The translations under genes and the position numbers were made by a program. From Megasphaera stantonii (GTDB lineage Bacteria > Bacillota > Negativicutes > Veillonellales > Megasphaeraceae), in contig NZ_CP029462.1 of NCBI RefSeq assembly GCF_003367905.1, positions 744,001-808,000 of the forward strand: a stretch of 64,000 nucleotides of DNA. The letters run 5' to 3'. Below, piece after piece: positions 17,200-43,246 of this stretch. A model generated the notes under the pieces. That model had not been told where the DNA came from, searched no databases, and saw only the letters and a program-made list of their open reading frames with translations. Within the stretch, counting starts at the first letter, position 1; each line of letters opens with the position of its first letter.

Positions 17200-18006
17200 T
17201 CACCTAATACCTCCAAAAGAATGGACATGTTTTATATCTTCTTTTTTATCAGGAAAACTATGTTTTTTCTCTATTGCCTGTATAAATTCACAAAACAATT
17301 CATTTCTACTCTTTACTTCGTTAACTTGTCCAATATAGTCTAAATATGTTCTCATCGTCTCGACAGCTAATATGGAATTATTTTGCAATTGCAGAAGCAA
17401 ACCCCATTCTATCGTCGATTTATTCTCTTTCTCTTTCAGGTACTTTCGGACTGCCCTGAAAAGGAAAGGATGAAAAGTTCCTTTTTCAGGCATAGCATAA
17501 ACGGTGTCCCTGAAATCAACATATAATGGATTATCAAATTCCCAAAACCGGCTTTTCTTAGTGCTTTTCACCATATCTTCCTGACTTCGTACTGTCGGCA
17601 GTCTCATATCAGTTCCCCAAAAGCGAAATAATAAGAACATATCCGTTTCTGTATCTTCAGAAATATATATTTCCAAAGATTTTTCTGTAATATGATCAGC
17701 ATACTTTTTTTCGGACCTCTGCAAATATAAATTATACTGCTTATCCTGTAAAGACTTTCCTTGCAAATATACAGTCAAGTTTACCGGTTGGAGAAGGAAG
17801 TAATATTCTCCTTGAAACTTGATAATTCCTCGGGTAATGCAAACATTTCCTTCTTGCACTACAAAATCAATGCCCTCTAAAATACCGTCACTATATGAAT
17901 CGTATTTCAATTTTACGAAATCACGAGGATACTGATATAGCTCCCCCAGCATATCTTTGGTCAAGACGGCTCCATGAACAAAAGAAACTGTTTTTTGTAG
18001 TAACAT
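17200..18006 (-). CDS. Cluster protein of unknown function, possible baseplate (TssK-like) component
   Basis: A 268-residue protein, last gene of the cluster, starting 6 bases after the stop of the repeat-bearing Hsp70. The N-terminal 90 residues look beta-rich: SFVHGAVLTKDMLGELYQYP, then ILEGIDFVVQEGNVCITRGI. The C-terminal part is helical. The N-terminal pattern (gain of a Gly-rich turn, then aromatic strands) loosely recalls shell domains of TssK and phage receptor-binding proteins. This is a weak similarity by eye, and I would not assign the function without a profile search. GGGAGG abuts the ATG very closely, so the start is uncertain. Confidence 0.5.
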   Translation of the reverse strand: MLLQKTVSFVHGAVLTKDMLGELYQYPRDFVKLKYDSYSDGILEGIDFVVQEGNVCITRGIIKFQGEYYFLLQPVNLTVYLQGKSLQDKQYNLYLQRSEKKYADHITEKSLEIYISEDTETDMFLLFRFWGTDMRLPTVRSQEDMVKSTKKSRFWEFDNPLYVDFRDTVYAMPEKGTFHPFLFRAVRKYLKEKENKSTIEWGLLLQLQNNSILAVETMRTYLDYIGQVNEVKSRNELFCEFIQAIEKKHSFPDKKEDIKHVHSFGGIR

Positions 18007-18011: not shown

Positions 18012-21000
18012 CTACCTCTTTCCATTAAAGAATGTTTCCAACGTTTCGCCTTCAAAGCTTTCAAAAGTACCTTTTTCCTGTAAATAAAATTCTCCCTTAT
18101 GCTTATTGATTTGATAAATATTTACACCATAACCTTGCTTGGCCGGCAAAAGGAAAAGATAAATTAATTCATCTTCATTGCCGCCATATAATGTGCTGAT
18201 AATCTGATCCCATAAACTTTCTTCTTCAATATTTGCCGTTTCTCTTATGCACTGCTCTATATCTGATTTATTGCACTTATTTTCCCAGCTGAGATTCAGT
18301 ACATAAGTAAACTGTTTCTGCAACACGCCATTGCTGTCTTTCACAACAAAATCAACTTTTTTAGCCGTATCAGGTCGTTCAATAAGACGGCAACTGCCAT
18401 CTGCCCCTAAGACCTTTTCTTCACCTGTACTGCCTATGCGATATATATCATAAATTAATTTCGGCACTTGTACGGAAATATTCGGTTTGATTTCTCCAAT
18501 TTCCTTATCACGGATATATTCAATGCTGCCTTTAATACACGCCAATTTAAGATCAGTACTATTTTCTTTTACAACGCCCTTAGCAGCCCTGAGATACTTT
18601 CCAGGAATAAATTCCTTAAACAAATCATGGAATAAACTAATTTTGCAAGACTGCCCTGACAACTTGTAAAAGCTGCAATTCATGAGTTCATCTGGATTTT
18701 GTTTTCCAAATAAAGTATTTAACAAGGCGTAAATATCTGGACATAAGACACGCCGGATTTCATTGATCGTAATATCTATATCTTTCATCGGATTATCATA
18801 CTTGATTAAATCATTACTTGCACCATCATGTATAAACAAATAATATTGTTCATTTTTTTGCGCATAAATCTTCCTATCTTTATCTTTATTAAAGTCGAGG
18901 ACAACTAAATTGATGCGATAAAATTCTATCTTAATTGCTTCGGCCATTTGCCATAAATAATAGTAATTGCGCTTTATTTTACGCTTTTCTTTCATTAATT
19001 TGCTTTCTGCAAATTTTGTAGGAATATATTGTTCAGCCTCATCATAGGCTTTTTCAAATGATTCATAAATGGTTCGTTTAGACTCTCCGCCATCAATACG
19101 TGTCATAATTTCATTTTCATCGTTTTGAATCAGTTCTTGAACAGACAAATTTCTATCCGCATGGGAATGTTCTTTTTTAGATTTAATATAATGTGCCAAT
19201 TTAATTTTTAATATTTGAAGGATTCTATATGTGACGTTGTTGCCACCAAAATTCGAATCGCCGTTTTCAAAACTAGTCACCACATTAATAATTTTATATG
19301 AAGCCGTCGGTACATAATGATACGTACACCGAGCCAAATCAGTTGTTCCGCCGCCGCAATCCAATATCATGATTTTTTCTTCATCTTCAGACATGGAATT
19401 TTCACAAAGCCGCTTGGCAATATGATTATATATAATCGCAACACCTTCATCCAGACTTGATTGTTCGCGCAGTACCGTATATTGCCCTTTAAATAAGTCG
19501 TTCATTTCCTGATTAAACGTTGCTTTTAATTTTACAGGAGCAGAAAAATGCAACGTCTTAAATTTTACCTTAAAATATTGTTCAGCCTTATCGATAACAT
19601 ATTGAATATAGGCCCGAAGAATTTCTTTTCTGGATACATTGCACTTGTTTCCGTTTTCATCAAAAATTTCCTCTTTCTCGTTTATATCAGTAATCCAGCG
19701 CTTAATTTCATAAAATACGCTGGCCTGCGTATCATAATCGGCTTCAATGATTTTTTTCTTGGCTTCATAGCCGCAAATATATTCTATATGTTCAGAATCA
19801 GCGCATGAAGCGACATAAACAATAGTCGGCAGCATTTCCTTAGACTCCACAGCATCTTCTGTTATGTCCAAAAATTTTACCAGTTCTACATCATTCGAAT
19901 AGGGCTCTTTAATGCCATAACTTCCAGCAGTCGTATTGCTAGTGCCAAAATCAATGCACAATGTCTTTTCAGTCGTATCTAACTTTTGATAATCTAAATA
20001 ACATTCTACTTCATATACGTTTCCCTTGTAATTAGAAATGTCAATATTCCTCTGGAAAAAGGAAGCAGCTTCCTGTGGAAAAAGCACTATCTTAAATTTT
20101 CGGTTTGCAATAAAGGAATTATAGACTATATTCTTAGATTTGAAGAGTAAGTGAAGTACATCTTTGTTATATTCCAAATAACCTATAGCAGCTACCTCCC
20201 CAGTATTGCAATTTATGAGACCTACACATCCCATATATAGAGACAGAGTATTTGGAATTTTAATAAAAAAACTATCCTGCAGCGTCACAGGCATTTTTTC
20301 TGTGAACACAAACTCTGCCACATCAATGCTGTCGCTTTTATCGATATGTACAGCCTGAGCATACAAAGAATTCATTTGCTCTGCTGTAATTTCCGGTTCG
20401 GACAAGGAGTCAGTAGCAAGTCGGAATCTGCCTGTATATATTTCGCCATCATATAGATTCATATTACCGCCTTTTTCCAGTAATATCTCTGCTTCTGCAG
20501 GAAAAAATACCAACATAAATGATTTAACCTGCATAAAAGATTCATAATCTATGGTTTCATTATGTAAAAATAATCGCTGCTTATCTCCCTCGCCTTCCAA
20601 ATGGCCTGTTGCAATTACATCCCCTGCATCATCGAATACGCCAAAGCAGGCAGAAGAAACAGACATATCATCGCCTAAAAAGGTAATCTCAATATTTTCC
20701 TTCAATAGGTCATCCATATGCTGCAGCGCAGGCAGCTGCATCTCTCTTTGCTTATCGACTTTAACTGCTCGTTCATATATATTTGCCATTTCCTTCTTGG
20801 TAATCTGTACTGCTGCCGATTTTATACGGCAATGACAAATATATACATCTTCATTATACTGCTGCGACTCAACATTTCCTATAAGCAGGGAAGCGGCTTT
20901 CTGAGGAATAAAGGCCAATATAAAATTTTTCAAATTCTTAATGGCATTATCATCACCTTGAACATCTGGCAAAATCAGCTGCAACTTGCCTTGATTCTCT

Positions 21001-21557
21001 TCTAATTGCCCTACAGCCACGACCTCGCCGCTATCCCGGAGAAGGCCAACGCAGCCGCTATATACAGAAAGCGTATCAGCAATGGAAATATATACTTGAC
21101 TTTTTTCTATTGCATCATCTCCTTCAATTTCATCTATATGTATATCTCCCTGCGCATCTATTTTATTCGCCCGGCTGTAAAGCGCAGCAAATTGCTCCCT
21201 TGTCAGCCTTGTCGGCCAAGCATCATCGTTACCATTCGGAAAAATATTAAACACGGAAAAAAAAATGCCGCAGCGTTCTTCCCGAGTATTTATTTTCCTG
21301 ACAACACTTTCATCAAAGTCTGCATCTATATCTTGGAGAGCTTTAATCAATAGATCTTTGACTTCAAATCCCTTTGTTCTCGTATGCAACAAATACGCTT
21401 TAAATTCCTCTGCCGTTTCAAAGGGACTGTTAGAAGGATCTATATCTAATTCTTCCATATATTCTTTAATTTTTTTTATTTCCAGCCTTTGTTTTCCCAT
21501 TATGCCATTAGGAAAAACCTTGCCCATTATTTCATCAATCTGCAATGCATCGACCAT
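18012..21557 (-). CDS. Hsp70-like ATPase with three N-terminal tandem repeats
   Basis: An 1181-residue protein. Residues 1-115 are a helical lead-in. Three repeats of about 126 residues follow at roughly 121-246, 253-378 and 391-522. Each opens LYxRA..ID-like, has S.YxGCVGL..xxGEVxAxGxLE, then F.xxKxFxLxFFPxxAxxLL and ends Y.GxVY.xxC. The Hsp70 ATPase starts near 534 with CIDFGTSNTTAGSYG (phosphate 1) and has MILDCGGGTTDLARC (phosphate 2). The region after the ATPase is not a normal substrate domain. It lies between the Hsp70-VWA gene (19 bases upstream) and the terminal cluster gene. Role inferred: client binding or assembly of the injection machine. Confidence 0.8.
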   Translation of the reverse strand: MVDALQIDEIMGKVFPNGIMGKQRLEIKKIKEYMEELDIDPSNSPFETAEEFKAYLLHTRTKGFEVKDLLIKALQDIDADFDESVVRKINTREERCGIFFSVFNIFPNGNDDAWPTRLTREQFAALYSRANKIDAQGDIHIDEIEGDDAIEKSQVYISIADTLSVYSGCVGLLRDSGEVVAVGQLEENQGKLQLILPDVQGDDNAIKNLKNFILAFIPQKAASLLIGNVESQQYNEDVYICHCRIKSAAVQITKKEMANIYERAVKVDKQREMQLPALQHMDDLLKENIEITFLGDDMSVSSACFGVFDDAGDVIATGHLEGEGDKQRLFLHNETIDYESFMQVKSFMLVFFPAEAEILLEKGGNMNLYDGEIYTGRFRLATDSLSEPEITAEQMNSLYAQAVHIDKSDSIDVAEFVFTEKMPVTLQDSFFIKIPNTLSLYMGCVGLINCNTGEVAAIGYLEYNKDVLHLLFKSKNIVYNSFIANRKFKIVLFPQEAASFFQRNIDISNYKGNVYEVECYLDYQKLDTTEKTLCIDFGTSNTTAGSYGIKEPYSNDVELVKFLDITEDAVESKEMLPTIVYVASCADSEHIEYICGYEAKKKIIEADYDTQASVFYEIKRWITDINEKEEIFDENGNKCNVSRKEILRAYIQYVIDKAEQYFKVKFKTLHFSAPVKLKATFNQEMNDLFKGQYTVLREQSSLDEGVAIIYNHIAKRLCENSMSEDEEKIMILDCGGGTTDLARCTYHYVPTASYKIINVVTSFENGDSNFGGNNVTYRILQILKIKLAHYIKSKKEHSHADRNLSVQELIQNDENEIMTRIDGGESKRTIYESFEKAYDEAEQYIPTKFAESKLMKEKRKIKRNYYYLWQMAEAIKIEFYRINLVVLDFNKDKDRKIYAQKNEQYYLFIHDGASNDLIKYDNPMKDIDITINEIRRVLCPDIYALLNTLFGKQNPDELMNCSFYKLSGQSCKISLFHDLFKEFIPGKYLRAAKGVVKENSTDLKLACIKGSIEYIRDKEIGEIKPNISVQVPKLIYDIYRIGSTGEEKVLGADGSCRLIERPDTAKKVDFVVKDSNGVLQKQFTYVLNLSWENKCNKSDIEQCIRETANIEEESLWDQIISTLYGGNEDELIYLFLLPAKQGYGVNIYQINKHKGEFYLQEKGTFESFEGETLETFFNGKR

Positions 21558-21576: not shown

Positions 21577-23646
21577 TTATTTCTCCGTAACGCTTAAAAC
21601 AACTTTTTTAAACGTATCTTTTAATTTCGACATATTATCTAATTTATATACATCTTTTTCAGCAGACATTCTATTTAAGAAATCAAAATTAACGCCTCTT
21701 CCAACACCAATAGATATGACGCGCATATGTGCCCCTTTTAAATTTCCAACATAATCCAACGTACTTTGTGAATTATCTGGCGCACCATCCGTAACGATGA
21801 TAATGACTTTTTCATTTGTACTTTTGCTTAATTCCCCATAAGCCAGCCGCAACGCAGCCGTCATGTTCGTACTACCCCAGGCTTTCATATTCTGTACATA
21901 TTTGACCAATAAATTACTGTTGGCACTTAAGCCGCTGACCATTTCAGCATTGCTGCTAAACGTGACTAAGCCTACACGATGTACCGTAAAATCAATCATT
22001 TCCTCTAACAATGCATAACAAGCTTCTTTGGCTTCTGCTAAAGGAGTTCCATACATACTTCCTGACGTATCAATTAACAGCATAAAATCTACAGGCGATT
22101 GCCTTTTTATTTTTTCGGCCCTTTCCCCCTTTTTTACTTCAATTTCTTTTTCAAATCCACTGTCCAAATCTTTAGCCTGTACAGTAAGGATCTGACTGTT
22201 GTCAAAACTAAACGTAACTTCAATTTGCGGTTCGCCTACTGGTGCTTTTTTTATTCCATCTAATCTAAAGCTGCCTAAAAAATCATGCCTAGCAATGTCA
22301 GCAATATCTTCGCAATCACTGCCAGCTTCATATATATTGATGTCAATAGCCGTTTGGTTATCAGAAATTGTCGTATATATACCGCTCTTTTGGCAAGGAT
22401 AAGTTTCTCCTTTTTTCAGTAATTTTGATAGAGTAGATTTATGCGTCTGAGGATCCGTCACTTCAATGCCCAAAGAATGAGATAAAATATCTTTAAATGG
22501 GTCATCCTCGCCGCCATTATCAAAATTCGCAATAAACCCTGCACCTACAGCAACTAAAGTATCTCGTTCCAATTCCATGCTGGCTAATATATGAAATATA
22601 TTTTCAACGGCATTCTGAATATAAGGAATATAACAGCTTCCACCGACTAGGATGACTTCGCCAATATCCTCTAAGGCAAACTTTTTACTGGAAGCAATGA
22701 AGTTTTCAATACGTCCTATTATTTTGTCGTACAATTCACGGCATAGGCCATTGAACTCATTCCGCGTAAAAGTAATATCAAAATTATAAAATTTACCATT
22801 GTATTTAAATAAATTCGGAATATTGACAATAGTTTCTTCCGTATCACTCAATTCAATTTTAGCAATTTCTGCCGCTTCTCGCACTTGACCAACCATGGCA
22901 TAATACGCTTTATAGTCTAAACCGGAATTTTTCTGATTAGATAAATCAATGCCAAGGTCATCTTCAATAATAGATATAAAATATTCATACACCTTCCTGT
23001 CAAAATCATCTCCGCCCAATTTTTTATCACCGTCAATATCCAAGGCCTTATAAATATGTTTTTCCGGCACTGCTTCTAACACGCTTAAATCAAAAGTACC
23101 GCCGCCAAGATCAACGATAAAAACCTTTTCATTTAAATTCAATTCTTTTACGGCTGCTACTGCCGCTGCCATAGGTTCGGTAATAATACGCTTGACAAAA
23201 AAACCTGCCCTTTCTCCGGCTTTTTTCGTTTCTTCTTTCTGCTTGGAATTAAAATATGCCGGCACTGTAATAATAGCTTCTATTTCAGTATCTTCACTGC
23301 TCTTCATTTTTTTTAGAATTCCTTTTTTTACTTCCTGCAAAACTAATGCCGCTACGTCTGTCGGTGTAAATGTCAAGCCGTTGCAAGTCCATGTCTTTTT
23401 ATCATCGCCCATATACGTTTTAGCTGAGCGAATTTCATTTATTGGATCCAATATGCCCATCTTACGCGCTTTAGAACCAACTATAATATTTTTACTGTCA
23501 TCTTCATCCACATAAATGACAGATGGAATCAATTTCCCGCTTCCTGGAAATTTTATTAAATCAAGTTTTCCTTTTTTATTTAAATAACATGCCAAGGTAT
23601 TGGTTGTTCCCAAATCAATGCCTACTCGAATTGTTTCTCGATCCAT
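21577..23646 (-). CDS. DnaK-like Hsp70 fused to a C-terminal VWA domain
   Basis: A 689-residue protein. Residues 1-about 385 form a well-preserved Hsp70 ATPase: VGIDLGTTNTLACYLNK, FIVDLGGGTFDLSVLE, and VILVGGSCYIPYIQNAV. A substrate-binding-like beta domain spans about 390-510. Residues 516-689 are a von Willebrand A domain with an intact MIDAS: DTSGS (526-530), the Thr of STNMTAAL, and VTDGAPD. VWA domains bind protein ligands through Mg. The Hsp70-VWA fusion is unusual and may tether the chaperone to a structural partner. GTAAGGAGACAGA precedes the ATG. The coiled-coil gene upstream ends 50 bases before. Confidence 0.88.
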   Translation of the reverse strand: MDRETIRVGIDLGTTNTLACYLNKKGKLDLIKFPGSGKLIPSVIYVDEDDSKNIIVGSKARKMGILDPINEIRSAKTYMGDDKKTWTCNGLTFTPTDVAALVLQEVKKGILKKMKSSEDTEIEAIITVPAYFNSKQKEETKKAGERAGFFVKRIITEPMAAAVAAVKELNLNEKVFIVDLGGGTFDLSVLEAVPEKHIYKALDIDGDKKLGGDDFDRKVYEYFISIIEDDLGIDLSNQKNSGLDYKAYYAMVGQVREAAEIAKIELSDTEETIVNIPNLFKYNGKFYNFDITFTRNEFNGLCRELYDKIIGRIENFIASSKKFALEDIGEVILVGGSCYIPYIQNAVENIFHILASMELERDTLVAVGAGFIANFDNGGEDDPFKDILSHSLGIEVTDPQTHKSTLSKLLKKGETYPCQKSGIYTTISDNQTAIDINIYEAGSDCEDIADIARHDFLGSFRLDGIKKAPVGEPQIEVTFSFDNSQILTVQAKDLDSGFEKEIEVKKGERAEKIKRQSPVDFMLLIDTSGSMYGTPLAEAKEACYALLEEMIDFTVHRVGLVTFSSNAEMVSGLSANSNLLVKYVQNMKAWGSTNMTAALRLAYGELSKSTNEKVIIIVTDGAPDNSQSTLDYVGNLKGAHMRVISIGVGRGVNFDFLNRMSAEKDVYKLDNMSKLKDTFKKVVLSVTEK

Positions 23647-23695: not shown

Positions 23696-24610
23696 CTAAT
23701 TTCTCTCCCATGATGGCGATTCATCATCAGGTGATGCGCTGACATCTTGTTGACTCTCTATAGCGGTCTGAGTATCCTTTGTTGCAGATTCCAGCACCAC
23801 TTTATCAGGTTGCTCTTCATTTTTTATGTTTTTTTCTTTTTCTGCCTTTTTTTTTAATTGATCCAATTTGTTTTCTGCCTGTACAGCTTTTCTTTTTTCG
23901 TCCGCTAACAGCTTTTCAACAACCTTCAATTCATCATTGCGATTTTTCAATTCTGTTTCTAATCTTATAACTTTATCACGTAAACTTTTTTCCTCAGCAC
24001 GCAATGCAGTTGCTTCCCTCGTTGCATTGTCTAATTTCTTAGTAATATTTTGTAAAACCTTATCTTTATTATCCACTTCTTCCTTTATATGGGCTACTTC
24101 CTTTTCCTTCCTTTTTAACTCATCATAAATCTCCTGTTTCTCTATAGCAAAATGCTCTTTTTCCTGTTTAAAATTATTTTTTTCTTCTCTAAAATTACGT
24201 TGTTCTTCTTCCAATTCCCGACGCTCCTTGTCTACCTTTTCTTGTTGTTCTTTGCACGACCTCCTCATATATTGCAAGTCTTCTTCCAGAAAATCCAAAT
24301 GAACTAGCCTATCATTCACTAATTCTTGAATGCTCCGATGCTGTTCATATAAGGCAGCATATTTATCTTGCTCAGCTCTTAGATTTTTTTCTGCCTTAAT
24401 ATCATTAATTTTCATCTGTTCTTCCACTGCCTGCCTGTCATTTTCAGTCTTTTCCAACTTAGTCTTTAAGAGCTTAATTTGTTCTGTCAATCGCAACTGA
24501 TTTTCTTCTAGCGCTTTTATTTCATCACAATACTGATCAGCTATACTCTTCATCTGCGTCAAAATATCATGTAAGTCCCGTATCATATCATATGCGCTTA
24601 TTTTATTCAC
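23696..24610 (-). CDS. Long coiled-coil protein of the Hsp70 cluster
   Basis: A 304-residue protein, almost wholly alpha-helical and charged, with heptad-like Lys/Glu/Leu patterns from about residue 10 to 270, then a disordered acidic tail (NEEQPDKVVLESATKDTQ). The start is GTG, preceded by AGGGGGATTTTACT. It sits between a small coiled-coil gene and the Hsp70-VWA gene. It could be a co-chaperone arm (GrpE has a long N-terminal coiled coil) or a scaffold. No GrpE head domain is visible at its C-terminus, unlike the other partners in this cluster. Confidence 0.65.
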   Translation of the reverse strand: MNKISAYDMIRDLHDILTQMKSIADQYCDEIKALEENQLRLTEQIKLLKTKLEKTENDRQAVEEQMKINDIKAEKNLRAEQDKYAALYEQHRSIQELVNDRLVHLDFLEEDLQYMRRSCKEQQEKVDKERRELEEEQRNFREEKNNFKQEKEHFAIEKQEIYDELKRKEKEVAHIKEEVDNKDKVLQNITKKLDNATREATALRAEEKSLRDKVIRLETELKNRNDELKVVEKLLADEKRKAVQAENKLDQLKKKAEKEKNIKNEEQPDKVVLESATKDTQTAIESQQDVSASPDDESPSWERN

Positions 24611-24835: not shown

Positions 24836-26389
24836 TTATCCTCCAATCAACACAACTTTATCTTCAATCAGCACGATATTACAGTCTTGCCCTTCACCCT
24901 GACATTCATAAACCCGTATGTGCAGTTCGCCTTTTTCGTTCATTTTCATCTTAAATAAAACAGCTTCTTTGTCTGTGTACAAGGTTTTATCCAGTTCAAT
25001 CTTCCCCATAAATACAATATCTTCATCATCAATAGGAGCATCGGAAATATCATTGAATGTTTGATAAACTGATATAGTATAATTATTTTTTTCTAAATCA
25101 GCAATGCGCAAGGGATTATAGAACGTTTCAAATCCATAACGTTCATTACGGTTTATATATTTTACAAACCTATTATTTTCATTAATGCCTATATAAAAAG
25201 GAATGATGTTATGAATTTCGATATCATTTTCTTCGTTTTTTAAATAGAAATAATGCGCTGCCCCAGCTGCAATACCTATATAGGCTTCATCCATATCACA
25301 ATCTTCACTGTCGAATACATCATCTCCTACATACTCACTCAGTATCTCCCTAAAATAGGGGATTTTTGAAGTCCCACCAAATGACCATGCCAGTGTAACC
25401 TCATCCTTCGTAATTTCATCAGTACTATCAAACAACTCGTCTAAGCACTGGATAATCCGGTCTTTAATTTTTATATCAGAAAACACAGTATATATTTCAT
25501 CTCGCGTCAGGGCAAAAATATAGTTTTTCTGTATTCCGCGAAAAATATGAGAACATTCAGCATTTTCTTCTTCACTGTCAAAAATCATCTCTTTTAATTC
25601 CTTGACAATAGAAACTAATTCCTGTTCTGCATATCCAGACGTATCTTCAGCAGCAATAATATTCTTTATTTCCGCTTCATACTTAGGCTTAAAACTCCGA
25701 GTATATATATCCCAATCGATGTCAATTCCGCCATAATGCATTCCTTTGGCCGCTAATTCCGTAATGCATACTTCGCCGTCTCCGTCGTTTTCTACGCGCA
25801 GCAAGCTAAGATCCAATGTCGAGCCGCCGAAATCGAAAATCAGGACAACTTGCTCCCCTTCTTCATCAAAAACATTTTCAATAGAAAATGCTGCCGCAAA
25901 TGGCTCTGTAATGACCGCTTCCACATCAATATGGGCAGCAATGGCAGCATCATATATCCGCTGCTTCTGCATCTCTGAAAAGCAAACAGGCATCGTAATA
26001 ACAGCTCGTATTTGCTTCTGCGATAGCGTATTAGATATTGTCTTCTGCAACCAGGAAAATATATCTGTAGCTGCCTCTATAGCCGTTATATCCCGCCCCA
26101 AACTATCTATGTAAGCAGACCAGTGTTCTAATTCCAGTTTTCGTTTGACATAGGTAATCATATTCTTCTTATTCCCCAGCTCTGCCGATCGGAGAGCTGC
26201 TGTTCCTACATCGTAAGCATTACAATCTTTATAATAAATGACATTTGGCGTCTCTGAGCCTTTGCCAATAGATGTATTTAATTTTATTTTTCGCTGCCTG
26301 CCCTGAGCCGTATATGACGCAGCTTTTATGTTGCAAGCGCCGAAATCTATTCCTATAAAATGTTGAGCCACGCTATTCCTCCGTCTCAT
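24836..26389 (-). CDS. Divergent Hsp70-like ATPase with altered phosphate-1 loop
   Basis: A 517-residue protein. The actin/Hsp70 fold is recognisable by FIGIDFGACNIKAASYTA (phosphate 1), LIFDFGGSTLDLSLLRV (phosphate 2) and WSFGGTSKIPYFREIL (adenosine motif). The usual GTTN of phosphate 1 is GACN, so the Thr that contacts the phosphates in DnaK is missing, and GGGT is GGST. ATP turnover may be slow or absent. The C-terminal about 120 residues are beta-rich. It overlaps by four bases the GrpE-like gene upstream (ATGA), which marks them as a translated pair. Confidence 0.78.
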   Translation of the reverse strand: MRRRNSVAQHFIGIDFGACNIKAASYTAQGRQRKIKLNTSIGKGSETPNVIYYKDCNAYDVGTAALRSAELGNKKNMITYVKRKLELEHWSAYIDSLGRDITAIEAATDIFSWLQKTISNTLSQKQIRAVITMPVCFSEMQKQRIYDAAIAAHIDVEAVITEPFAAAFSIENVFDEEGEQVVLIFDFGGSTLDLSLLRVENDGDGEVCITELAAKGMHYGGIDIDWDIYTRSFKPKYEAEIKNIIAAEDTSGYAEQELVSIVKELKEMIFDSEEENAECSHIFRGIQKNYIFALTRDEIYTVFSDIKIKDRIIQCLDELFDSTDEITKDEVTLAWSFGGTSKIPYFREILSEYVGDDVFDSEDCDMDEAYIGIAAGAAHYFYLKNEENDIEIHNIIPFYIGINENNRFVKYINRNERYGFETFYNPLRIADLEKNNYTISVYQTFNDISDAPIDDEDIVFMGKIELDKTLYTDKEAVLFKMKMNEKGELHIRVYECQGEGQDCNIVLIEDKVVLIGG

Positions 26390-27447
26390 TCCTCATATTT
26401 CAAGATAACACATTGCCCTTCATAACACATAGATTCCCGTTCGCCATCTTCATTAAAAAAATCTATGCAGTATGGCAGACGTTCTATTTCTTCGATTTCT
26501 TTATCTTTAGCAATATCTGAAGTCGGCTTTCTAAGTGGTTCCATTTTATCTAAAATAGCGTCAGTATATTTAATGCCTTCTTCTATTTTTTCCGTATATA
26601 TGCAGCAGGAACGCAAATATGTATTAATTAATTCTAAAAGCTGTACATAAAAAGGTCTATCTTTTTCAATATTCATTCCCCTACGTATAGCCACCATCAA
26701 AGTAGATAGCAAATCTTTTTTGATAATCTTAAAGAACGCTTCAGTCACATTTTCAAATACATCATCATCGCTATCAATTACCAATGTATCGATAAATTTT
26801 TCCACATCATTTTTCAGCTTATCAAACATTTTAATATAAATAGCTTTTTGCTCAAAATCAGATTGCTTCAAATAATCCAAAATTGGCTTTATATGCAGTA
26901 CTGGCTGCAACTCGTTTTTAATAGCTTCAGCGTTTCCTGACAAAAGCAAGTTTCTTCTATTCTCTATTTGAAATGCTGTTAACAAAGAATCTTCCTCAGG
27001 CTGCGCCGGCACAGCCTGTTCTGAAACATTAAGTTCTAAGCTTTGATTTTTTTGCGCTTGTTGATTTATCTTTTCTTCCAGTGCCTCAAGTTTTTTATAT
27101 AATTGACAATTTTGCTTTTCATATAAATCAATGCGTTCACTCTGCTTCTTTGCAATATCTTCCAACGCTTTGATACGTTGCTGCAACTGACTCTGCCGTA
27201 TATTTTCTTTGCTCTTTTCCCTTAATTGTATAAGTTCTTTCTGCAAATCAGCAATTTGACCTTCCAGTGCTGCTATCTTTTCCTGTAATGGTTCAGCACT
27301 TTCCCTGGGCTTCTGATTTATGATGACATATACTTTTTCTTCTAACTGATCGTTATATGCAGTATCATTCTCTACAAACCACTGTATATATCTTTTCATA
27401 TCTTGAAAGGCACATGCTCGAATATACTGCCAAATAATTTGTCTCAT
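26386..27447 (-). CDS. GrpE-like coiled-coil partner of the divergent Hsp70
   Basis: A 353-residue protein. A coiled coil covers about residues 40-135 (KIAALEGQIADLQKELIQL and similar heptads). A helical and then beta C-terminal half follows (FYVQLLELINTYLRS, ending ESMCYEGQCVILKYEE). The C-terminal half aligns by eye with the protein at 28538-29329, including the GQCV motif near the end. This coiled coil plus head layout is that of GrpE nucleotide exchange factors, so a role in resetting the adjacent Hsp70 is inferred. AAAGGGGCG precedes the ATG. The IS30 element at 27478 lies only 30 bases upstream and now separates it from the rest of the operon. Confidence 0.65.
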   Translation of the reverse strand: MRQIIWQYIRACAFQDMKRYIQWFVENDTAYNDQLEEKVYVIINQKPRESAEPLQEKIAALEGQIADLQKELIQLREKSKENIRQSQLQQRIKALEDIAKKQSERIDLYEKQNCQLYKKLEALEEKINQQAQKNQSLELNVSEQAVPAQPEEDSLLTAFQIENRRNLLLSGNAEAIKNELQPVLHIKPILDYLKQSDFEQKAIYIKMFDKLKNDVEKFIDTLVIDSDDDVFENVTEAFFKIIKKDLLSTLMVAIRRGMNIEKDRPFYVQLLELINTYLRSCCIYTEKIEEGIKYTDAILDKMEPLRKPTSDIAKDKEIEEIERLPYCIDFFNEDGERESMCYEGQCVILKYEE

Positions 27448-27477: not shown

Positions 27478-28574
27478 GGCGAATTTACAATACAAGTGCA
27501 ACACCTATAAAAAATGACACATAGGTTTCTGATATAATAATGCTACCAAACAAAATCTATATCTCGGAGGAAACCTATGTGCCACTATCATCATCTTACT
27601 CTATCTGAACGAGAAAATCTACTCTTTTTTCGCGCGCAGTCCTATTCTATCTCTCGAATTGCGGCGGCCCTCGGCCGAGATAAATCCACGATCTCACGGG
27701 AACTACGCAGAAATACAGTGAACGGCAAGTATCTGCCCATCACCGCACAACAACAGTATGCCCGCCGCCGTAAGGCATGCAAGCCTCACAAGCGGTTAGA
27801 GAATGCCGAGCTATTCGCATTGGTTAAAAATCTCTTCCTGGTGCATCATTGGTCCCCAGAAGAAATTGCCGGACGCTTGCAGCTGGAACATCAGAAGGCA
27901 CTCCTTAGCTATGCAACGATTTACCGCGCCATATATGCCGGTATGTTTGATGAAACGTCGTCCTCCCATGGGTCCCGCGGTGCGGTCCGCCGCTTGCGGC
28001 ATCATGGAAAATCCCGGCATACCCGGCAATATCAGGAACGACGGGGTTCTATTCCCATCTCTCACGATATTTCGGAACGGCCAGCAGGAGCCGCTAACCG
28101 CTCCCGGCGAGGACATTGGGAATGTGATACCATAGCAGGAAAGACAGGAAAAGCCTGTCTGGTTACGTTGGTAGATAGAAAGAGCCTGTATCTGGTAGGA
28201 GGCAAAGCAGCCAAAAAGACAGCACAAGCCGTCAATACGGTATTGCTTCAGGTACTGCAAGGGCAACCTGTAAAAAGCCTTACGCCGGACAGAGGAAAAG
28301 AGTTCGCCCATCATGCCGCTGTCACGGAGGCCTTGAACGGCGTGCCGTTTTATTTCCCGCCGCCGCATCAGCCCTGGCAGCGGGAAGCAACGAAAATACC
28401 AATGGCCTAGTCCGAGAGTATTTCCCGAAAGGGACGGACATCACACTCGTTCCAGAAGCCTATGTGCAAGCTGTTTTTGCAGAACTAAATCGCCGTCCCC
28501 GAAAATGTTTAGGATACAAAACGCCATACGAAGTACATTACTCTAAAAAGTTGCACTTAGCTTGACAATTCGCC
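27478..28574 (+). mobile_element. IS30-family insertion sequence, copy 1 (transposase frameshifted)
   Basis: An element of 1097 bases, nearly identical to copy 2 at 43362-44459. The imperfect 25-bp ends are GGCGAATTTACAATAC and so on at 27478-27502, and the inverted end at 28550-28574. Outer GGCGAATT and inner AAGTGCAAC match exactly. CC on each side is the likely 2-bp target duplication. It differs from copy 2 by T28187 (G in copy 2) and by a G lost from a run of four at 28382-28384. It is inserted against the direction of the injection cluster, between two GrpE-like genes. Confidence 0.93.
27577..28565 (+). pseudogene. IS30 transposase, broken by a one-base deletion
   Basis: The first 269 or so codons match the intact transposase of copy 2. 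Loss of one G in the run at 28382-28384 shifts the frame, and the ribosome stops at 28410 after 277 codons. The catalytic Glu region that follows in copy 2 (NENTNGLVREYF) is thus out of frame. One substitution, Leu for Arg in RKSLYLVG, also differs. It is probably inactive, although its ends can still be moved by the intact copy. Confidence 0.92.
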
Positions 28575-29329
28575 CCCCAAACAACACATTGTCCTTCAAG
28601 AAAAGCCAATTCGCATTCATCATCCCCATCGATATAGGTTACAAAGTGCGGCTGCAATTCTATTTCATCGATTATATTGAACCATTGTTCTTCCTGTGTT
28701 TCTTTCTTCAAAATCTTAAATATTTCTATTAATTCTACTTTCCTATCATCGTTTACTACTTCCATTTCCCGGATCGAACGGCCTTCTCTAACCGGATGAG
28801 CCTTCACATATATCTGCTCTAAATACGCTTCTATAGCCCTGTGAAGCCGCCCATAAAAAGCTCTGCTTTCTTCTTCACTTCCCCTCATACCCCGATAGGC
28901 ACCGATTATAAAATTCACCAAGTACTTTCTAATGAGCCCAAGTATAGTATCTACTACATTTTCTGTTGTTTCTTCATCAAATTCCTTAATCTTGTCAAGT
29001 ACCTTACTCACCCGTTCCCTATAATTCTCGATATATTTAATATACTCTTTTCCCATGGTATTTTCTCTTAAAACCTGCAGTATAGGGTCTATATGCTTTA
29101 CTTTGGCCATATATTCAGCAAAATGCTCTCTATCTCTCAAATCAAGCGGCACGGACTGAACAAAATTATCAGCAGAAACCGGTTGTTTCTTTAAAAGCGG
29201 CACAAGCCCTTCTGGAGCCTTTTTTACTAGAACAGGATATCGTTCTCTCAACCTTTTTAATACAACCGCCCTATTCCATGATTTATAAGCAACATATTGA
29301 TTTCTCAAATGCTCTACTAACAGACTCAC
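28538..29329 (-). CDS. GrpE-like partner of Hsp70, last codons replaced by IS30
   Basis: A 263-residue protein, helical, homologous by eye to the C-terminal half of the protein at 26386-27447 (AFYGRLHRAIEAYLEQ versus FYVQLLELINTYLRS, and FLEGQCVVW versus YEGQCVILK). It starts with GTG overlapping the TGA of the Hsp70 gene upstream, so the two are translationally coupled. The final residues after VVWG are encoded by the IS end. Removing the IS and one CC gives VVWGKKN and a stop, followed by the next gene 16 bases on. Hence only three native residues were lost, and the protein is probably still functional. Role inferred: nucleotide exchange factor. Confidence 0.7.
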   Translation of the reverse strand: MSLLVEHLRNQYVAYKSWNRAVVLKRLRERYPVLVKKAPEGLVPLLKKQPVSADNFVQSVPLDLRDREHFAEYMAKVKHIDPILQVLRENTMGKEYIKYIENYRERVSKVLDKIKEFDEETTENVVDTILGLIRKYLVNFIIGAYRGMRGSEEESRAFYGRLHRAIEAYLEQIYVKAHPVREGRSIREMEVVNDDRKVELIEIFKILKKETQEEQWFNIIDEIELQPHFVTYIDGDDECELAFLEGQCVVWGANCQAKCNFLE

Positions 29330-30918
29330 TCTAAATCACTCTCTTTCTTAACTGACACGCTACCGCTTTGAATCGTATTACCAGTTCCGTCTTTAACAGT
29401 AGCTACAGCAGCCAGCGTGTCATCTTTTTGTATTGTAATCTCTACGTCTATGACTGTATTATCTTTCTGCAATCCTGCCGGCAAATCATCGATAATCAAC
29501 GTATCAATCAGGGTTATGCCGTTGTCATCAATCCGTACAGCTTTGGGAAAATTTTTTACATCACATTCATAAAGGTGTATTTCTAACCGCTGCTGTCCAT
29601 CGTGCATTAACTTAAACCTTCTCGTCTTGCTGCAAGGCAGAGGCTCATTTTCTGGAATAATCGCCTGGAACTTGCCATATTGCACACCTGATGTTACGGC
29701 TATGCCAGTCTGTACATTCGTCTTCCCATCGTGAAGTTCGTCTGCTAGGTCACATTCAGCTAAAATGGTTGCCCCTCGTGAAATCAGCGTCGACACATCA
29801 TCACCATATATGATTTCATCTTTAACGAGTTTATCCTCCAAGGATTTTTTGACGAAAGGTATATTGGAACTGCCGCCGGCCAATACAATAGGACTGATAT
29901 TTTCTACACCCATCTCCCTGGCTTCTTCAATGGTCCGAATCGTAATATCAATAGTTCTCTGCACATCTCTGCTAATATATCGTTCTAATTCATTGCGAGA
30001 AAATTCTGCCTCATACATAGCCGAAGTACCGTCATCTAGCCAAATATTGCATACTTTCCTCGCTTCCGCCGATTCTGATAATTCCTCTTTAATGACATCT
30101 GCTGCTTGCCATATTGCTAACATATTTTGACGATAGTGAATGAGAGGCATTGTATAATATGACTCGTCGAATTCATCTTCCGAAAAAGGTAATTCCATGC
30201 CATACTCATCATTAATCCGATTCAGTAATTCTTCAGCCAGACGATCCGTCAGCGTATTGCCGCCTAAGTTCTTGTCGCCGTTCGTTGCAATTTCCTGAAA
30301 TTTATTTCCTTCTTTGCGAATAATTGACACATCAAAAGTACCGCCGCCAAAATCATAGACCAAAATCGCCTTGTCCTGAATATCCCCCTCGTCCAATCCC
30401 ATATCTTCCTGGCAGGCTACTGCCGCCGCCGTCGGTTCTGCCACTAATTTAGCGGTTTTAAACCCTGCATCTTTAGCTGCCTTCTTAATCGCTGCTTTAT
30501 CAGTTGAATTAAATTTAGCCGGAACAGTAATAACCGTTTTATCGATGCACCCTTCTATCGGACCGAATTCTTTTATCAATTTTTCTTCTATGCCGTGAAC
30601 AATTTCATTTAAAAATAAACGCGCTACTTCACGAGGTCGAATGGAAAATGTGTCCCCATTTTCTGCTGTAACGACAATCTTTTCTTTTTCACCAATTTTA
30701 GGCTTAAAATTCAAAACCCCCGCTTGTTTTTGGTTATCGAATATAATAAGTCTTTTAGCTAAGCTGCCTATGACGTATTCATTTTTACTATAAAAATAGA
30801 TAGCTGAGGGAATAATTTCGTCGCCTTTATATTTTAACTGGCGTAATTTCCCTTTTTTATTAAAATATGAAACGACTGTATTCGTCGTTCCAAAATCAAT
30901 TCCTATTTCCTTTCCCAT
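29326..30918 (-). CDS. Canonical-type Hsp70 (DnaK-like) of the injection cluster
   Basis: A 530-residue DnaK relative with all ATPase signatures intact: IGIDFGTTNTVVSYFNK, VYDFGGGTFDVSIIRKE, and VLAGGSSNIPFVKKSL. A shortened substrate-binding beta domain follows (NEPLPCSKTRRFKLMHDGQQ onwards). The helical lid of housekeeping DnaK (about 640 residues) is missing. The absence of grpE, dnaJ and hrcA nearby also argues against it being the general chaperone. It follows the two putative baseplate genes and is coupled to a GrpE-like gene downstream by a GTGA overlap. Confidence 0.88.
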   Translation of the reverse strand: MGKEIGIDFGTTNTVVSYFNKKGKLRQLKYKGDEIIPSAIYFYSKNEYVIGSLAKRLIIFDNQKQAGVLNFKPKIGEKEKIVVTAENGDTFSIRPREVARLFLNEIVHGIEEKLIKEFGPIEGCIDKTVITVPAKFNSTDKAAIKKAAKDAGFKTAKLVAEPTAAAVACQEDMGLDEGDIQDKAILVYDFGGGTFDVSIIRKEGNKFQEIATNGDKNLGGNTLTDRLAEELLNRINDEYGMELPFSEDEFDESYYTMPLIHYRQNMLAIWQAADVIKEELSESAEARKVCNIWLDDGTSAMYEAEFSRNELERYISRDVQRTIDITIRTIEEAREMGVENISPIVLAGGSSNIPFVKKSLEDKLVKDEIIYGDDVSTLISRGATILAECDLADELHDGKTNVQTGIAVTSGVQYGKFQAIIPENEPLPCSKTRRFKLMHDGQQRLEIHLYECDVKNFPKAVRIDDNGITLIDTLIIDDLPAGLQKDNTVIDVEITIQKDDTLAAVATVKDGTGNTIQSGSVSVKKESDLE

Positions 30919-30934: not shown

Positions 30935-31585
30935 TCAATATATAATAACTTGATCTATCTTCATCGTTTGCTCTTGTCCAATGAATCCAATATGCTGATC
31001 CCAAAAGATTTCTATCCCAGCAGTCACGTCAAAAAACAAATCCCGGATTAAATTAAGTTTGTTTTCCATTTCGCTTGTCTTTATATGCGGAATATATAAA
31101 AGAAATTTTCTTTCATAGCCATAATAGTACAATTGCGTATACCCTAGAAAATTCGTTACTGCTTCGCAAAAAAAACTCTTTTTATTCCTCATTATTCTCT
31201 TTTTCCTAAGCAAATTCAAAAGCTGTTTTTTTTCAGTTTCCGTCAGCAGTAAATACATTTTCCTCACATTGATACCCCAATGTCCCTGCAAAATTTCTTG
31301 TTCAATCCCTCTTTCCATGAGCAGGCAAAATCGCATTCCTGCCATGTAATCTAAATAGGCTAAATAATGGTATAATATATTTTCTATCTCTTTTACAACT
31401 TTTTCATCTATTATTTCATCCTGCCACGCCTTAAGCAAAGCAGAAAAAACAGGTTCAAAGCGAAAAAGCGGACTTACCACTACGCAGTTACCATTATCCT
31501 CTTGTACCTCTGAATATGGTTCTGCAAGTTGTTTCGGAACGTTATATCTCTTTGTTTCATCATATACCTGCCATAAATATTTCAT
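30935..31585 (-). CDS. Cluster protein, putative baseplate component
   Basis: About 216 residues starting MKYLWQVYDETKRYNVPKQL. The ATG at 31585 overlaps the stop of the upstream gene (ATGA), so this start is preferred to an earlier opening. The C-terminal part is beta-strand rich (KFLLYIPHIKTSEMENKLNL, then IGFIGQEQTMKIDQVIIY), reminiscent of the small wedge proteins of contractile tails, but I cannot match it to TssE, TssG or gp53 with confidence. Position directly after the spike gene and its partner supports a baseplate role by analogy with T6SS and phage order. Confidence 0.5.
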   Translation of the reverse strand: MKYLWQVYDETKRYNVPKQLAEPYSEVQEDNGNCVVVSPLFRFEPVFSALLKAWQDEIIDEKVVKEIENILYHYLAYLDYMAGMRFCLLMERGIEQEILQGHWGINVRKMYLLLTETEKKQLLNLLRKKRIMRNKKSFFCEAVTNFLGYTQLYYYGYERKFLLYIPHIKTSEMENKLNLIRDLFFDVTAGIEIFWDQHIGFIGQEQTMKIDQVIIY

Positions 31586-32847
31586 ACCTCTTCCCTTTCT
31601 GTAACGCCTATCCAAGTAAATTCAGGATAGTGTTGTTCCATGAAATGCAACACATAATTTGCATAATCTGTTAAAAAAATTCCCTCTCCCTCAAACATAA
31701 CAATACAACAAGGCTTATAGCGCAAATCCGTCAAATACAATTCATTTTGATTGGCAAAGTACCTATGCCCTCTTTTATACCGAAGAATAACTTTACGATT
31801 TTCTCGATTTCTTTTTACTACACAGCAAAATTCACAAGAAAAATTTTTATGCTGAAATCTGGATAATACTTGCGTAATATCGGCTCTAGTCCGCAGAGGT
31901 ATGGCTGTATCAAATCTTTCATTTCGGAACTTATTTTCAAAACATATTTCTTCACCTTTCACATCATGAATGCTAACCTTTTTATACTGAATATCTTCCA
32001 GTTCTTCATGACAAAAAATTTCTATCTTATCTTGTCCCTTGCGAATTTCGTCACAAGGAGCCAAGGGATATATAAATGCAGCAGCGTGAGTATCCTCATA
32101 AAAATATTCATATCCGCCTGTATCCTGGCTTTGATGCAGAGGCGGCAGGCCTGTTTCACTATCTTCTACTTCAATATTCCACATCAGGCAATATTCTGTC
32201 AGCAAAACATTCTTTAATCCATTTTCTTCAAGACGGAAGTTAACCGGCCAATGATGTTGCCATAGGTCTTGTACATCCACATTTTCCAATCGTATATCAA
32301 CAGCATGCCGCGCATACGGCGAATATATGACCGGCTTGGTAATATGATACATATCAGCTAAGAAAAATAATAAATTTTCTTGTTCAATAAATCGATAGTG
32401 AGGCACTAAAGAATATGTAAATTCTCTAGTATCGTTATCACAGCAAATAGTGCCTGTATATGTTCTGCTGCAAATTTCAGATAACTTATCATATGTGCAA
32501 TTTAAGAAAAATTGACATTCCTGCTGATAAAACGCTGCATCATATTCCATAGAATCAGCAATCCCAAAAAGACTATTGCCTACATGAATTTCCTGGAATC
32601 CTCTTTCTGCCATTTTCGCAATATCATTTTTTTTTACCAACACGGTAGTAATGTTCCACACTACGCTCCAATCATTCTGCACTGCGGCAAAAAAATTATT
32701 TACTCTCTTTTCTACACGCTGTAATACAATATCTTCATATATCGATAAAGCAGAAAATGTGCTAGTCAGTATTTTTTTTAATTCGCTATCTTTTATAGTT
32801 GATTTTTCGATAATATCAGTAATCTTACTCTGTAAATTACGTTCCAT
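31582..32847 (-). CDS. Cluster protein, putative large baseplate (TssF/gp6-like) component
   Basis: A 421-residue protein with no recognised family. The N-terminal 90 residues are helical and the rest is mixed and beta-rich, with many aromatic and Cys residues (CEFCCVVKRNRENRK). It is placed 17 bases downstream of the VgrG-like spike gene and coupled to the next gene by an overlap. In T6SS and phage P2 the spike neighbours are wedge proteins, so a baseplate wedge is a reasonable hypothesis based on order alone. AATGGAGAAGTAAAG precedes the ATG. Confidence 0.48.
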   Translation of the reverse strand: MERNLQSKITDIIEKSTIKDSELKKILTSTFSALSIYEDIVLQRVEKRVNNFFAAVQNDWSVVWNITTVLVKKNDIAKMAERGFQEIHVGNSLFGIADSMEYDAAFYQQECQFFLNCTYDKLSEICSRTYTGTICCDNDTREFTYSLVPHYRFIEQENLLFFLADMYHITKPVIYSPYARHAVDIRLENVDVQDLWQHHWPVNFRLEENGLKNVLLTEYCLMWNIEVEDSETGLPPLHQSQDTGGYEYFYEDTHAAAFIYPLAPCDEIRKGQDKIEIFCHEELEDIQYKKVSIHDVKGEEICFENKFRNERFDTAIPLRTRADITQVLSRFQHKNFSCEFCCVVKRNRENRKVILRYKRGHRYFANQNELYLTDLRYKPCCIVMFEGEGIFLTDYANYVLHFMEQHYPEFTWIGVTEREEV

Positions 32848-32863: not shown

Positions 32864-34300
32864 TTAAGAAATATGCACAGTCCTGCCCTGCAAATTCAAA
32901 GAACTGTTGCTTTTTACAGTTGCAGAACCGCCAGATTCCATGTGCACCTTGCTATTTCCTTTGATTTGTATCGTCTTAGCCTGCTGATCTACTGTACTAT
33001 CAGCCTGAATTAGAATGCCATTTTTCTGCAAAACTAATTCGTTTTCAGCCGTTTTTAATAATATTTTATCTTCATCTATACAAACCTGGTTGCTGCCTAC
33101 ACATAATTCAATTTTATTTTCATCCATATATATTTTATTTTCAAATGAATGCAGCTCTAAAGAATTATTTTTCCAAAAGATACGCTGCTTCGTATTATTT
33201 CCAATATATTTTTCTTCTACATTGCTGCATTCTTCATCTAAAGCTTCCTGCCGTAATGCCGAATATGCAAAACAAGTTCCATTAGTGAAGAGAATTTCGA
33301 CTACATCTCCTACATCAGGAAGAAAAACAATACCTCCCCGTTTTCCGCCATAGAAAGTACCATAATCAAACCAAGCCCTCTTACTTTCAGTTCGGTCCAT
33401 ATCTTCTACATAGTCATCAATAAATTCAACCTGAATCCGGCCTCTATGTTCCGGATCTTTCACATTAGTAACCCGAGCTTTAAGCTTTATCGTTTTTTCC
33501 AAAGAAAACTTATCCGCCCCTTTAGGTATATCTTTCTTTTTCAATTCTTCAATTTCATATGTAAATTCAGTGCTTTCGTGTACTTTCCTTACAGTAACAG
33601 CTGTAATTACATATTTTGTACTGCTTTTTCCTAATGTTACAATACGCCCTAATTCAATATACTTTTGAAGTTTTATATCTTGACTGTACCATTTCTTCTT
33701 TCCTCTGCACTGCTGTTTGTATTTAGAGGCAATAATCTCCTCATTTTCTATCTTCATTACCCGCTGATTTATATTAACATCATCAATGGCGATAATAACT
33801 TTATCTGCAAATACGTCATTAACCCACAGGTGCGTCTGACAGCACGCAGCTATACGCTGTATAAAAGCGAAATCAGTTTCTTGACTTTGTACTGCAACAG
33901 CTTCATAAATTTCTGTCTTTAATTTGTCTGCCAGACGCAGCTCGCACGCTGATAGTGCGAGCCGCTGTGCTGACAGCAAATCACAAAATTTCTTTTGCGG
34001 ATCTTGAAATATTCTGTTTTTTTCATCTTGATCTAAAAGCACAGAAAGGGATGTCAAGGTTACATCAAGGGATGTAACCGAATACGTTTTTTCAATACTG
34101 ATTTCCTGAATAATGCCATTGAAAACAGGCATGCCATCGTCTAACTGCACTAAAGCTGCAGTTCCTGCCATCGTTGCATACTTATCTGCTGTATCCTCTG
34201 ATATGGCAGCGCTGAAATGACAGCAACTATGGCCGTCTCTCTGCTTGTGCAGTTCAAATTCATCAATATAAAACACGTCGTCAAATCCCTTGATCTTCAT
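32864..34300 (-). CDS. VgrG-like spike protein (gp27-gp5 type)
   Basis: A 478-residue protein. Residues 1-about 230 resemble the gp27-like hub (FYIDEFELHKQRDG; AVQSQETDFAFIQRIAACC is the 'S.FDFIxR' hallmark of VgrG and late control D proteins). From about 250 an OB fold of gp5 type appears: ARVTNVKDPEHRGRIQVEF, then GIVFLPDVGDVVEILF. A repetitive beta tail ends in NSSLNLQGRTVHIS, fitting a short triple-stranded needle. It would form the central trimeric spike at the tip of the tube, carrying the PAAR-like tip protein encoded upstream. AAAGGAGAGCGGCA precedes the ATG. Confidence 0.88.
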   Translation of the reverse strand: MKIKGFDDVFYIDEFELHKQRDGHSCCHFSAAISEDTADKYATMAGTAALVQLDDGMPVFNGIIQEISIEKTYSVTSLDVTLTSLSVLLDQDEKNRIFQDPQKKFCDLLSAQRLALSACELRLADKLKTEIYEAVAVQSQETDFAFIQRIAACCQTHLWVNDVFADKVIIAIDDVNINQRVMKIENEEIIASKYKQQCRGKKKWYSQDIKLQKYIELGRIVTLGKSSTKYVITAVTVRKVHESTEFTYEIEELKKKDIPKGADKFSLEKTIKLKARVTNVKDPEHRGRIQVEFIDDYVEDMDRTESKRAWFDYGTFYGGKRGGIVFLPDVGDVVEILFTNGTCFAYSALRQEALDEECSNVEEKYIGNNTKQRIFWKNNSLELHSFENKIYMDENKIELCVGSNQVCIDEDKILLKTAENELVLQKNGILIQADSTVDQQAKTIQIKGNSKVHMESGGSATVKSNSSLNLQGRTVHIS

Positions 34301-34336: not shown

Positions 34337-34780
34337 TCAACAAGATGCTGTGTTAATATTGTCTAAATAATTTTCCTTCTGCGTAAGTTCTAGTTCAAAT
34401 GTACATTTTTTATCTTCTTTTTCATAATGTTCTATGTAGTCTACTACAAACATCTTTTCAAATTTATAACTGCGTACAACATTGTTTTCTGAACTCTTAA
34501 TTTCAATTTCTACAGTTCTGTACCATTGATCTTGATTTGGATCTCGAGTCCAGTTAAACACAGCTATCAGCTTGTCCGTTATTTCCGGCTTTATTTCCCC
34601 GCATATTTTCAGCTTTGCTAGCATAGAATTAGATTTTTGCCTTACATCATCATCGGTCGTATCAAAAGAAATATTCACTTCCGTAATGATCTGTTTCTCA
34701 TCCTTGTCACCATCCATCGTCTTGCCAAATTCAATAATGTTTTTGCCGTCGCTTGGAACTATTGTTACTGTGTATAACAT
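34337..34780 (-). CDS. Hcp-like tube protein
   Basis: About 147 residues, all-beta by composition, beginning MLYTVTIVPSDG and ending with FVVDYIEHYEKEDKKCTFEL. The size, the strand pattern and the place between sheath and spike genes fit the tube protein (Hcp or gp19 fold) of contractile machines. Direct family assignment by eye is moderate. ATG at 34780 is preferred because GGGAGAGG lies five bases upstream; the earlier opening would overlap the sheath gene stop. High yield would be expected, as the tube is the most abundant part. Confidence 0.68.
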   Translation of the reverse strand: MLYTVTIVPSDGKNIIEFGKTMDGDKDEKQIITEVNISFDTTDDDVRQKSNSMLAKLKICGEIKPEITDKLIAVFNWTRDPNQDQWYRTVEIEIKSSENNVVRSYKFEKMFVVDYIEHYEKEDKKCTFELELTQKENYLDNINTASC

Positions 34781-34802
34781 AAATACCTCTCCCTTCTTAT
34801 AA

Positions 34803-36989: not shown

Positions 36990-37554
36990 TCTCCCCTTCC
37001 ACGTCTTTAAAATATACATTTTTTAAGTTTTCATGTTCTACAGCATGTTTCACTTCCTCGGTAACAATAATCTCTTGATTTACTACATGAGCCAGTTTAA
37101 ATATTTTATAATTTCCTACCGTTGCTGAATTAATACTAATATGCATCACTTCCTGCATCTGTTCCTCGGCAGAAAGGAATTCATTATTCTCCACAGCTAC
37201 GTCGCATTTATCCCAATTTAAACAGTTAATACGCGGCGGCAGAGCCAACCAATACGATTCCTTAATGCCAAATTCTTTAAATGTTAAATTAATAGGCTTA
37301 TAAAATAAATTATCAATATGCAAACTATCAAATATCCTTTTACATCGTTCTGAAACCAGAGGTATGCAGCCAGATATAAGAAAATCAGGAAATTCCATGC
37401 CGCCGTCTTCAGAAACTTCGCTTTCCAGCAATAAATGGTCTAAATATTGAAATTCAGAATTCAAACAACCAGAAAACAACCGTTCTTTCAATGAATCACT
37501 TAATTTTATATATTCCTCTACACAAGTTTCAGCGTACATGATATAAAACTTCAT
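36946..37554 (-). CDS. Imm11-like (DUF1629-type) protein, candidate immunity to the PAAR-AHH effector
   Basis: A 202-residue protein. The pattern FPDFLISGCIPLVSERCKRI, then ESYWLALPPRINCLNWDKC, then YKIFKLAHVVNQEIIVTEEV ending with NVYF follows the Imm11/DUF1629 immunity layout (P.fl....p.vSer, yw.l..p.i..Ld, i....ifrl....  i.vsee). Its ATG overlaps the stop of the nuclease effector gene (ATGA), as toxin-immunity pairs do, and it in turn overlaps the sheath gene. Inferred role: cytoplasmic neutraliser of the AHH nuclease in the producing cell. Family match is by eye. Confidence 0.65.
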   Translation of the reverse strand: MKFYIMYAETCVEEYIKLSDSLKERLFSGCLNSEFQYLDHLLLESEVSEDGGMEFPDFLISGCIPLVSERCKRIFDSLHIDNLFYKPINLTFKEFGIKESYWLALPPRINCLNWDKCDVAVENNEFLSAEEQMQEVMHISINSATVGNYKIFKLAHVVNQEIIVTEEVKHAVEHENLKNVYFKDVEGENASGIDNGNFKTDF

Positions 37555-42358: not shown

Positions 42359-42359
42359 T

Positions 42360-43238: not shown

Positions 43239-43246
43239 TGACAGAC

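Follow-up and report, generated by a model that had tools for sequence, protein, structure and literature searches.

A lidless Hsp70 fused to a VWA domain, a probable dedicated chaperone of a predicted contractile injection system in Megasphaera stantonii

To our knowledge, energy-driven handling in contractile machines falls to AAA+ proteins or to none. Hsp70 and/or vWA proteins have been described as chaperone parts of multi-gene predicted conflict systems, in which MoxR AAA+ proteins or GTPases are central (PMC7159879). Separately, an "unknown phage-like translocation system" was inferred in Gram-positive Firmicutes from Phage_GPD genes located beside DUF4280 (PAAR_H2) genes (PMC8651086). 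Searches of the open-licence literature, with its partial coverage, turned up neither an Hsp70-VWA fusion nor an Hsp70 in a contractile injection system (CIS). Here we analyze such a fusion encoded in a 64,000-nucleotide stretch of the M. stantonii chromosome (NZ_CP029462.1, positions 744,001 to 808,000), hereafter the window.

The fusion is encoded by a minus-strand operon within a low-GC stretch (GC 37%, compared with 48-56% in the flanks). The genes, named by their first coordinate in the window, are listed in operon order from 5′ to 3′:

42360..43274, minus strand, coiled coil with a GrpE-like head, possibly a dedicated nucleotide exchange factor (AF model, PDB fold matches)
39347..42379, minus strand, 1010-aa Hsp70/actin-fold ATPase-like protein of the window's CIS subtype, IDFGTKST and DFGGGTTD invariant (motifs, synteny)
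37551..39335, minus strand, possible effector with PAAR-like (DUF4280) N-terminus and AHH-nuclease-like domain (weak Pfam matches, 9.3e-4 and 5.9e-4, below cut-off)
36946..37554, minus strand, Imm11-family immunity protein (4.8e-12)
34803..37019, minus strand, contractile-sheath-like protein (AF model, modest fold scores)
34337..34810, minus strand, Hcp/TssD-like tube protein (TssD 0.0031; Hcp1 6bdc 0.0088 by profile)
32864..34300, minus strand, VgrG-like spike (Phage_base_V 4.3e-10, Phage_GPD 2.9e-6)
31582..32847, minus strand, conserved CIS core protein, probably baseplate judging from its position (conservation)
30935..31615, minus strand, conserved CIS core protein (conservation)
29326..30918, minus strand, Hsp70, first of a triad (Pfam HSP70 9.9e-56; syntenic)
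28538..29329, minus strand, paralogous to the C-terminal domain of 26386 (99.7% by hhalign); last ~12 codons within an IS30 copy
26386..27447, minus strand, coiled-coil partner of the Hsp70 triad, ending in a conserved domain (synteny)
24836..26389, minus strand, divergent Hsp70, second of the triad (Pfam HSP70 2.7e-32; syntenic)
23696..24610, minus strand, coiled-coil protein; among relatives whose gene context was read, most have a coiled-coil gene in this place upstream of Hsp70-VWA
21577..23646, minus strand, Hsp70 (NBD and SBD-beta) with a VWA domain replacing the lid (Pfam, alignment, motif check)
18012..21557, minus strand, actin/Hsp70-fold ATPase-like core protein, IDFGTSNT and DCGGGTTD invariant, common to every related CIS locus that it retrieved
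17200..18006, minus strand, conserved CIS core protein adjoining 18012 (conservation)

Hsp70-VWA is one of five Hsp70/actin-fold ATPases encoded in this operon. The core proteins 18012, 17200, 30935, and 31582 have no Pfam match, and sequence searches of the sheath-like protein, 17200, and 39347 against solved structures returned nothing usable. Two IS30-type copies in the window (27478-28574 and 43362-44459) are 99.8% identical, and the transposase ORF of the first is frameshifted (277 vs 329 aa). Since this first copy cuts into 28538 at its 3′ end and divides the Hsp70 operon in two, the window's version of the system may be impaired. Elsewhere in the window, a WYL-domain regulator (47328-48305) lies close to a tRNA-Ser at 48362 and has relatives near the CIS in G344 and G574, making it a candidate CIS regulator, and an LRAT-domain protein (49112-49654, 2.1e-23) is located at the edge of the low-GC stretch.

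The Hsp70-VWA gene encodes 689 aa in one unbroken frame, with Pfam assigning HSP70 to residues 8-512 (E 1e-91) and VWA to residues 520-680 (E 1.3e-21), both far past the cut-off. The phosphate-1, phosphate-2, and adenosine motifs of the actin-fold ATPase domain are present, the NBD motifs are intact (GIDLGTTNT at 9, AKTYMG at 75, EPMAAA at 157, VDLGGGTFD at 178, and VGGSCYIP at 334), and K76 is the equivalent of DnaK K70. The MIDAS is complete (D526, S528, and S530 in DTSGS, T593 in GSTNM, and D620 in VTDG), and its DxSxS, T, and D residues recur in 21/21 Hsp70-VWA copies checked. An earlier note on this DNA, made from the sequence alone, had read the protein as an Hsp70 ATPase and beta domain running into a VWA domain with an intact MIDAS, which the Pfam, motif, and residue data bear out. 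That note had also named two ways in which its reading could fail, namely a frameshift or misassembly joining two genes and homologues in which the two parts are always separate. The first is ruled out by the occurrence of the same fusion in many independent genomes, and the second by some 20 full-length fused homologues.

Hsp70-VWA is 37% identical to the DnaK of its own genome and shares with it the ATPase motifs and, by alignment and by the extent of the Pfam HSP70 match, SBD-beta. In contrast to DnaK, it lacks the SBD-alpha lid, with SBD-beta running straight into the C-terminal VWA domain, it carries DPFK in place of the hydrophobic linker VLLL, and its gene has a fixed place in a CIS operon. 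The genuine DnaK and GrpE of this genome are encoded elsewhere on the 2.65-Mb chromosome. Because it has neither the lid nor the linker of DnaK, the protein is not considered a DnaK orthologue; judged by sequence, it is a lidless member of the Hsp70 superfamily joined to a MIDAS-bearing VWA domain. The altered linker may change the coupling between ATPase activity and substrate binding.

Classification of the locus as a CIS relies on tube and spike, the VgrG-like spike being clear and the tube weak but consistent. The sheath-like protein 34803 has no sequence match to sheath proteins and is assigned by modest fold scores: a model built from a 16-sequence alignment (pLDDT 78) gave confident matches only to baseplate-complex chains of the Streptomyces coelicolor CIS and to a phage tail sheath (E 3e-3 to 7e-3, two libraries). 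Tube, VgrG-like spike, sheath-like protein, and PAAR-like effector with immunity protein liken the locus to T6SS and eCIS, from which it differs in that its ATPases are of the Hsp70/actin fold and four of its core proteins are without Pfam match. Among the operon proteins, Pfam detected neither the ClpV AAA+ protein nor the TssJLM membrane complex, and the locus is therefore not filed as a T6SS. The earlier note had remarked that VWA domains often accompany MoxR-type AAA+ proteins. Such a pairing gains no support here, as Pfam found no AAA+ gene in the CIS operon and the nearest P-loop matches belong to a NERD-UvrD helicase downstream. The helicase (14967-16682, just downstream of the CIS operon) strongly matches RTasNERD-Hel in PADLOC (2.7e-64), and a relative is also found near the CIS in G633. 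Other origins for the fusion were rejected. No relative in viral contigs and no useful PHROG match pointed to phage, plasmid relatives matched only at the level of an ordinary DnaK (31% identity over 87% coverage for the best), and known defence systems yielded a single weak PADLOC match, to the Hsp70 part.

Scanning 84,980 species with a profile of 18012 retrieved 80 loci. Most of these, from Paenibacillus, Brevibacillus, Clostridium, Lachnospiraceae, and others, contain a DnaJ-FHA-FHA-PP2C-PP2C/TPR block instead of the Hsp70 block. Hsp70-VWA occurs in 5/80, namely L119 and L120 (Selenomonadaceae; these repeat G614 and G630), L122 and L131 (Ruminococcus MAGs), and L124 (Lachnospiraceae). The loci fit the Phage_GPD/DUF4280 neighbourhood reported previously (PMC8651086); whereas that system was only inferred, the present analysis adds a sheath-like protein, a tube, an Hsp70-like core, the DnaJ/FHA/PP2C block, and the Hsp70-VWA variant. 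The DnaJ-bearing block of the basal Bacillota relatives suggests that chaperone involvement is probably general in this CIS family, which has been little characterized. Three CIS (G344, L143, and L155) carry neither the Hsp70 triad nor the DnaJ/FHA/PP2C block, and the triad is thus not essential to the machine. The basal type was also seen in a Methanovirga (archaeal) MAG, which may be a binning error, and in Leptotrichia (L150, L151).

The absence of an AAA+ gene from the CIS operon, as judged by Pfam, is what would be expected if the Hsp70 set replaced the T6SS AAA+ protein ClpV and dismantled sheaths after contraction, VWA serving to grip the sheath or 18012. Hsp70-fold ATPases or their cofactors do occur family-wide (18012 everywhere, the J-domain protein in the basal type, and the GrpE-like protein in the window type), but the disassembly role is itself presumed, general cellular ClpX or ClpB could act instead, and CIS loci without the triad exist; sheath recycling is, on balance, unlikely. 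Another proposal takes the Hsp70/VWA block as a regulatory switch that controls firing in place of the basal FHA-FHA-PP2C block. Although the window type has the Hsp70 block and lacks the other, which most of the 80 loci carry, the two occupy different operon positions and G344, L143, and L155 manage with neither, so that we hold control of firing to be rather improbable.

The roughly 20 full-length Hsp70-VWA homologues are at 40-56% identity and come from Selenomonadaceae, Lachnospiraceae, and Ruminococcus-type MAGs. Within the class, 29/381 genomes have a match at E < 1e-85, with about 20 full-length Hsp70-VWA proteins, mostly from one Selenomonadaceae genus. Many relatives are MAGs, and ORF calls in relatives are mechanical. 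The operon order from 42360 to 17200 recurs in some nine long contigs in addition to the window. Only one of the 17 genomes of the window's own family, M. stantonii itself, has the sheath-like gene, which suggests that the locus was probably acquired by transfer; no empty site for the island could be located, its flanking genes being ~208 kb apart in G001. Variants on the fusion include tandem Hsp70-Hsp70-VWA proteins of 1061-1063 aa (L088/L090, from G669 and G605) and, in G608, an extra Hsp70 encoded by a separate gene directly upstream of Hsp70-VWA.

Retention of VWA tracks the CIS. In 19 of the 20 copies with readable downstream context, 18012 follows directly after Hsp70-VWA (in one case with two small ORFs between); two further copies, G613b and G661, end at contig ends and fall outside this count. 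The sole exception (G613c, L098:1977-3980) lies outside any CIS; its neighbours are flagellar genes and a gene for a 453-aa protein that has no Pfam match. Conversely, 11 close homologues end where VWA would start, and 0/11 are followed by 18012, all being located outside a CIS and several adjoining the housekeeping genes trmD/hypF or frr/pyrH. The association of VWA with 18012 gives a Fisher P of 4e-7, calculated with 10 of the 11 VWA-less copies and without kinship correction. Seven of the 11 genomes holding VWA-less copies, several of them incomplete MAGs, lack 18012 altogether. At least three gains or losses of VWA are needed to explain the tree, in which two clades without VWA fall inside groups that carry it and are linked to the CIS. 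With the root uncertain, this reads as one old fusion from which VWA was repeatedly lost once the triad had left the CIS.

Being kept almost only where a CIS is present, Hsp70-VWA appears to be a chaperone that serves this machine specifically, in its construction or upkeep. VWA-less Hsp70 triads that persist without a CIS, beside housekeeping genes, indicate that not all of the Hsp70 function is tied to the CIS. The earlier note had proposed a chaperone tied to a specific structural client. Its tie to one machine gains support from the conserved CIS operon and from the retention of VWA; the structural client is presumed. Triads standing alone in other genomes, together with the membership of Hsp70 and vWA proteins in predicted conflict systems (PMC7159879), could alternatively mean that a separate conflict or stress system of the GTPase/HSP70 or MoxR-vWA ternary kind merely travels with the CIS. 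Unlike in those systems, Hsp70 and VWA are here fused and placed strictly inside a CIS operon, VWA is absent away from the CIS, Pfam detected no MoxR, GTPase, or STAND gene among the operon proteins of the Hsp70 block, and the PADLOC match is weak; a travelling conflict system therefore strikes us as very unlikely.

Effector and immunity genes share the operon, and the Hsp70 substrate cleft domain is retained, as would suit a chaperone that keeps the nuclease effector or the PAAR/VgrG tip unfolded until loading. The effector region is, however, variable (497-594 aa, scores 75-370, or in G645, G669, and G665 just PAAR-like stubs of ~105-114 aa), whereas Hsp70-VWA is constant across loci and adjoins 18012 rather than the effector. 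Effector or spike loading is accordingly a poor prospect in our estimation.

An Hsp70-type cycle in the CIS family is supported by the J-domain gene of the basal loci and by GrpE-like 42360. An AF model of 42360 (pLDDT 88) returned GrpE or GrpEL1 as all of its top nine PDB fold matches (E 2.5e-3 to 4.3e-2, prob 0.47-0.97). TM-scores over the whole chain are just ~0.3, so that topology and head agree without a rigid match. GrpE was matched by 5/8 members of the 42360 group (best 0.0032), and hhalign of 42360 against GrpE, preceding the fold search, was suggestive only; 26386 and 28538 gave no match to GrpE by hhalign. From these models, 42360 is a candidate dedicated nucleotide exchange factor for the operon Hsp70s.

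We consider it probable that Hsp70-VWA is a lidless chaperone which works specifically for the CIS and docks through its VWA domain. It would act within the co-encoded Hsp70 triad, alongside coiled-coil partners and the GrpE-like exchange factor of the same operon. The Hsp70 half, a predicted ATPase, would use an ATP-driven cycle to bind and then release some exposed segment of a client belonging to the CIS, presumably at some step in the building or servicing of the machine. Through its MIDAS, and presumably in a Mg-dependent manner, VWA would dock the chaperone on a fixed CIS partner, either 18012 or a sheath/baseplate component; 18012 seems the most likely because it is the constant downstream neighbour.

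More tentatively, and doubtful as a general statement, these loci may represent a widespread Bacillota family of injection machines, sparsely described so far, that depend on ATPases of the Hsp70 type and not on AAA+ proteins. The basal type would use a J-domain protein and 18012. In the Negativicutes, a set of five Hsp70s, one of them VWA-tethered, would work with a GrpE-like factor of their own, and the role would be that of ClpV in T6SS. That one CIS operon encodes several ATPases of the Hsp70 fold, including a VWA-tethered Hsp70, together with a GrpE-like factor suggests that a nanomachine is chaperoned by Hsp70, and the presence or absence of VWA alongside the CIS provides a clean test of the tie between chaperone and machine. 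The phage-like system of translocation previously only inferred in Gram-positive Firmicutes (PMC8651086) now has genes and coordinates.
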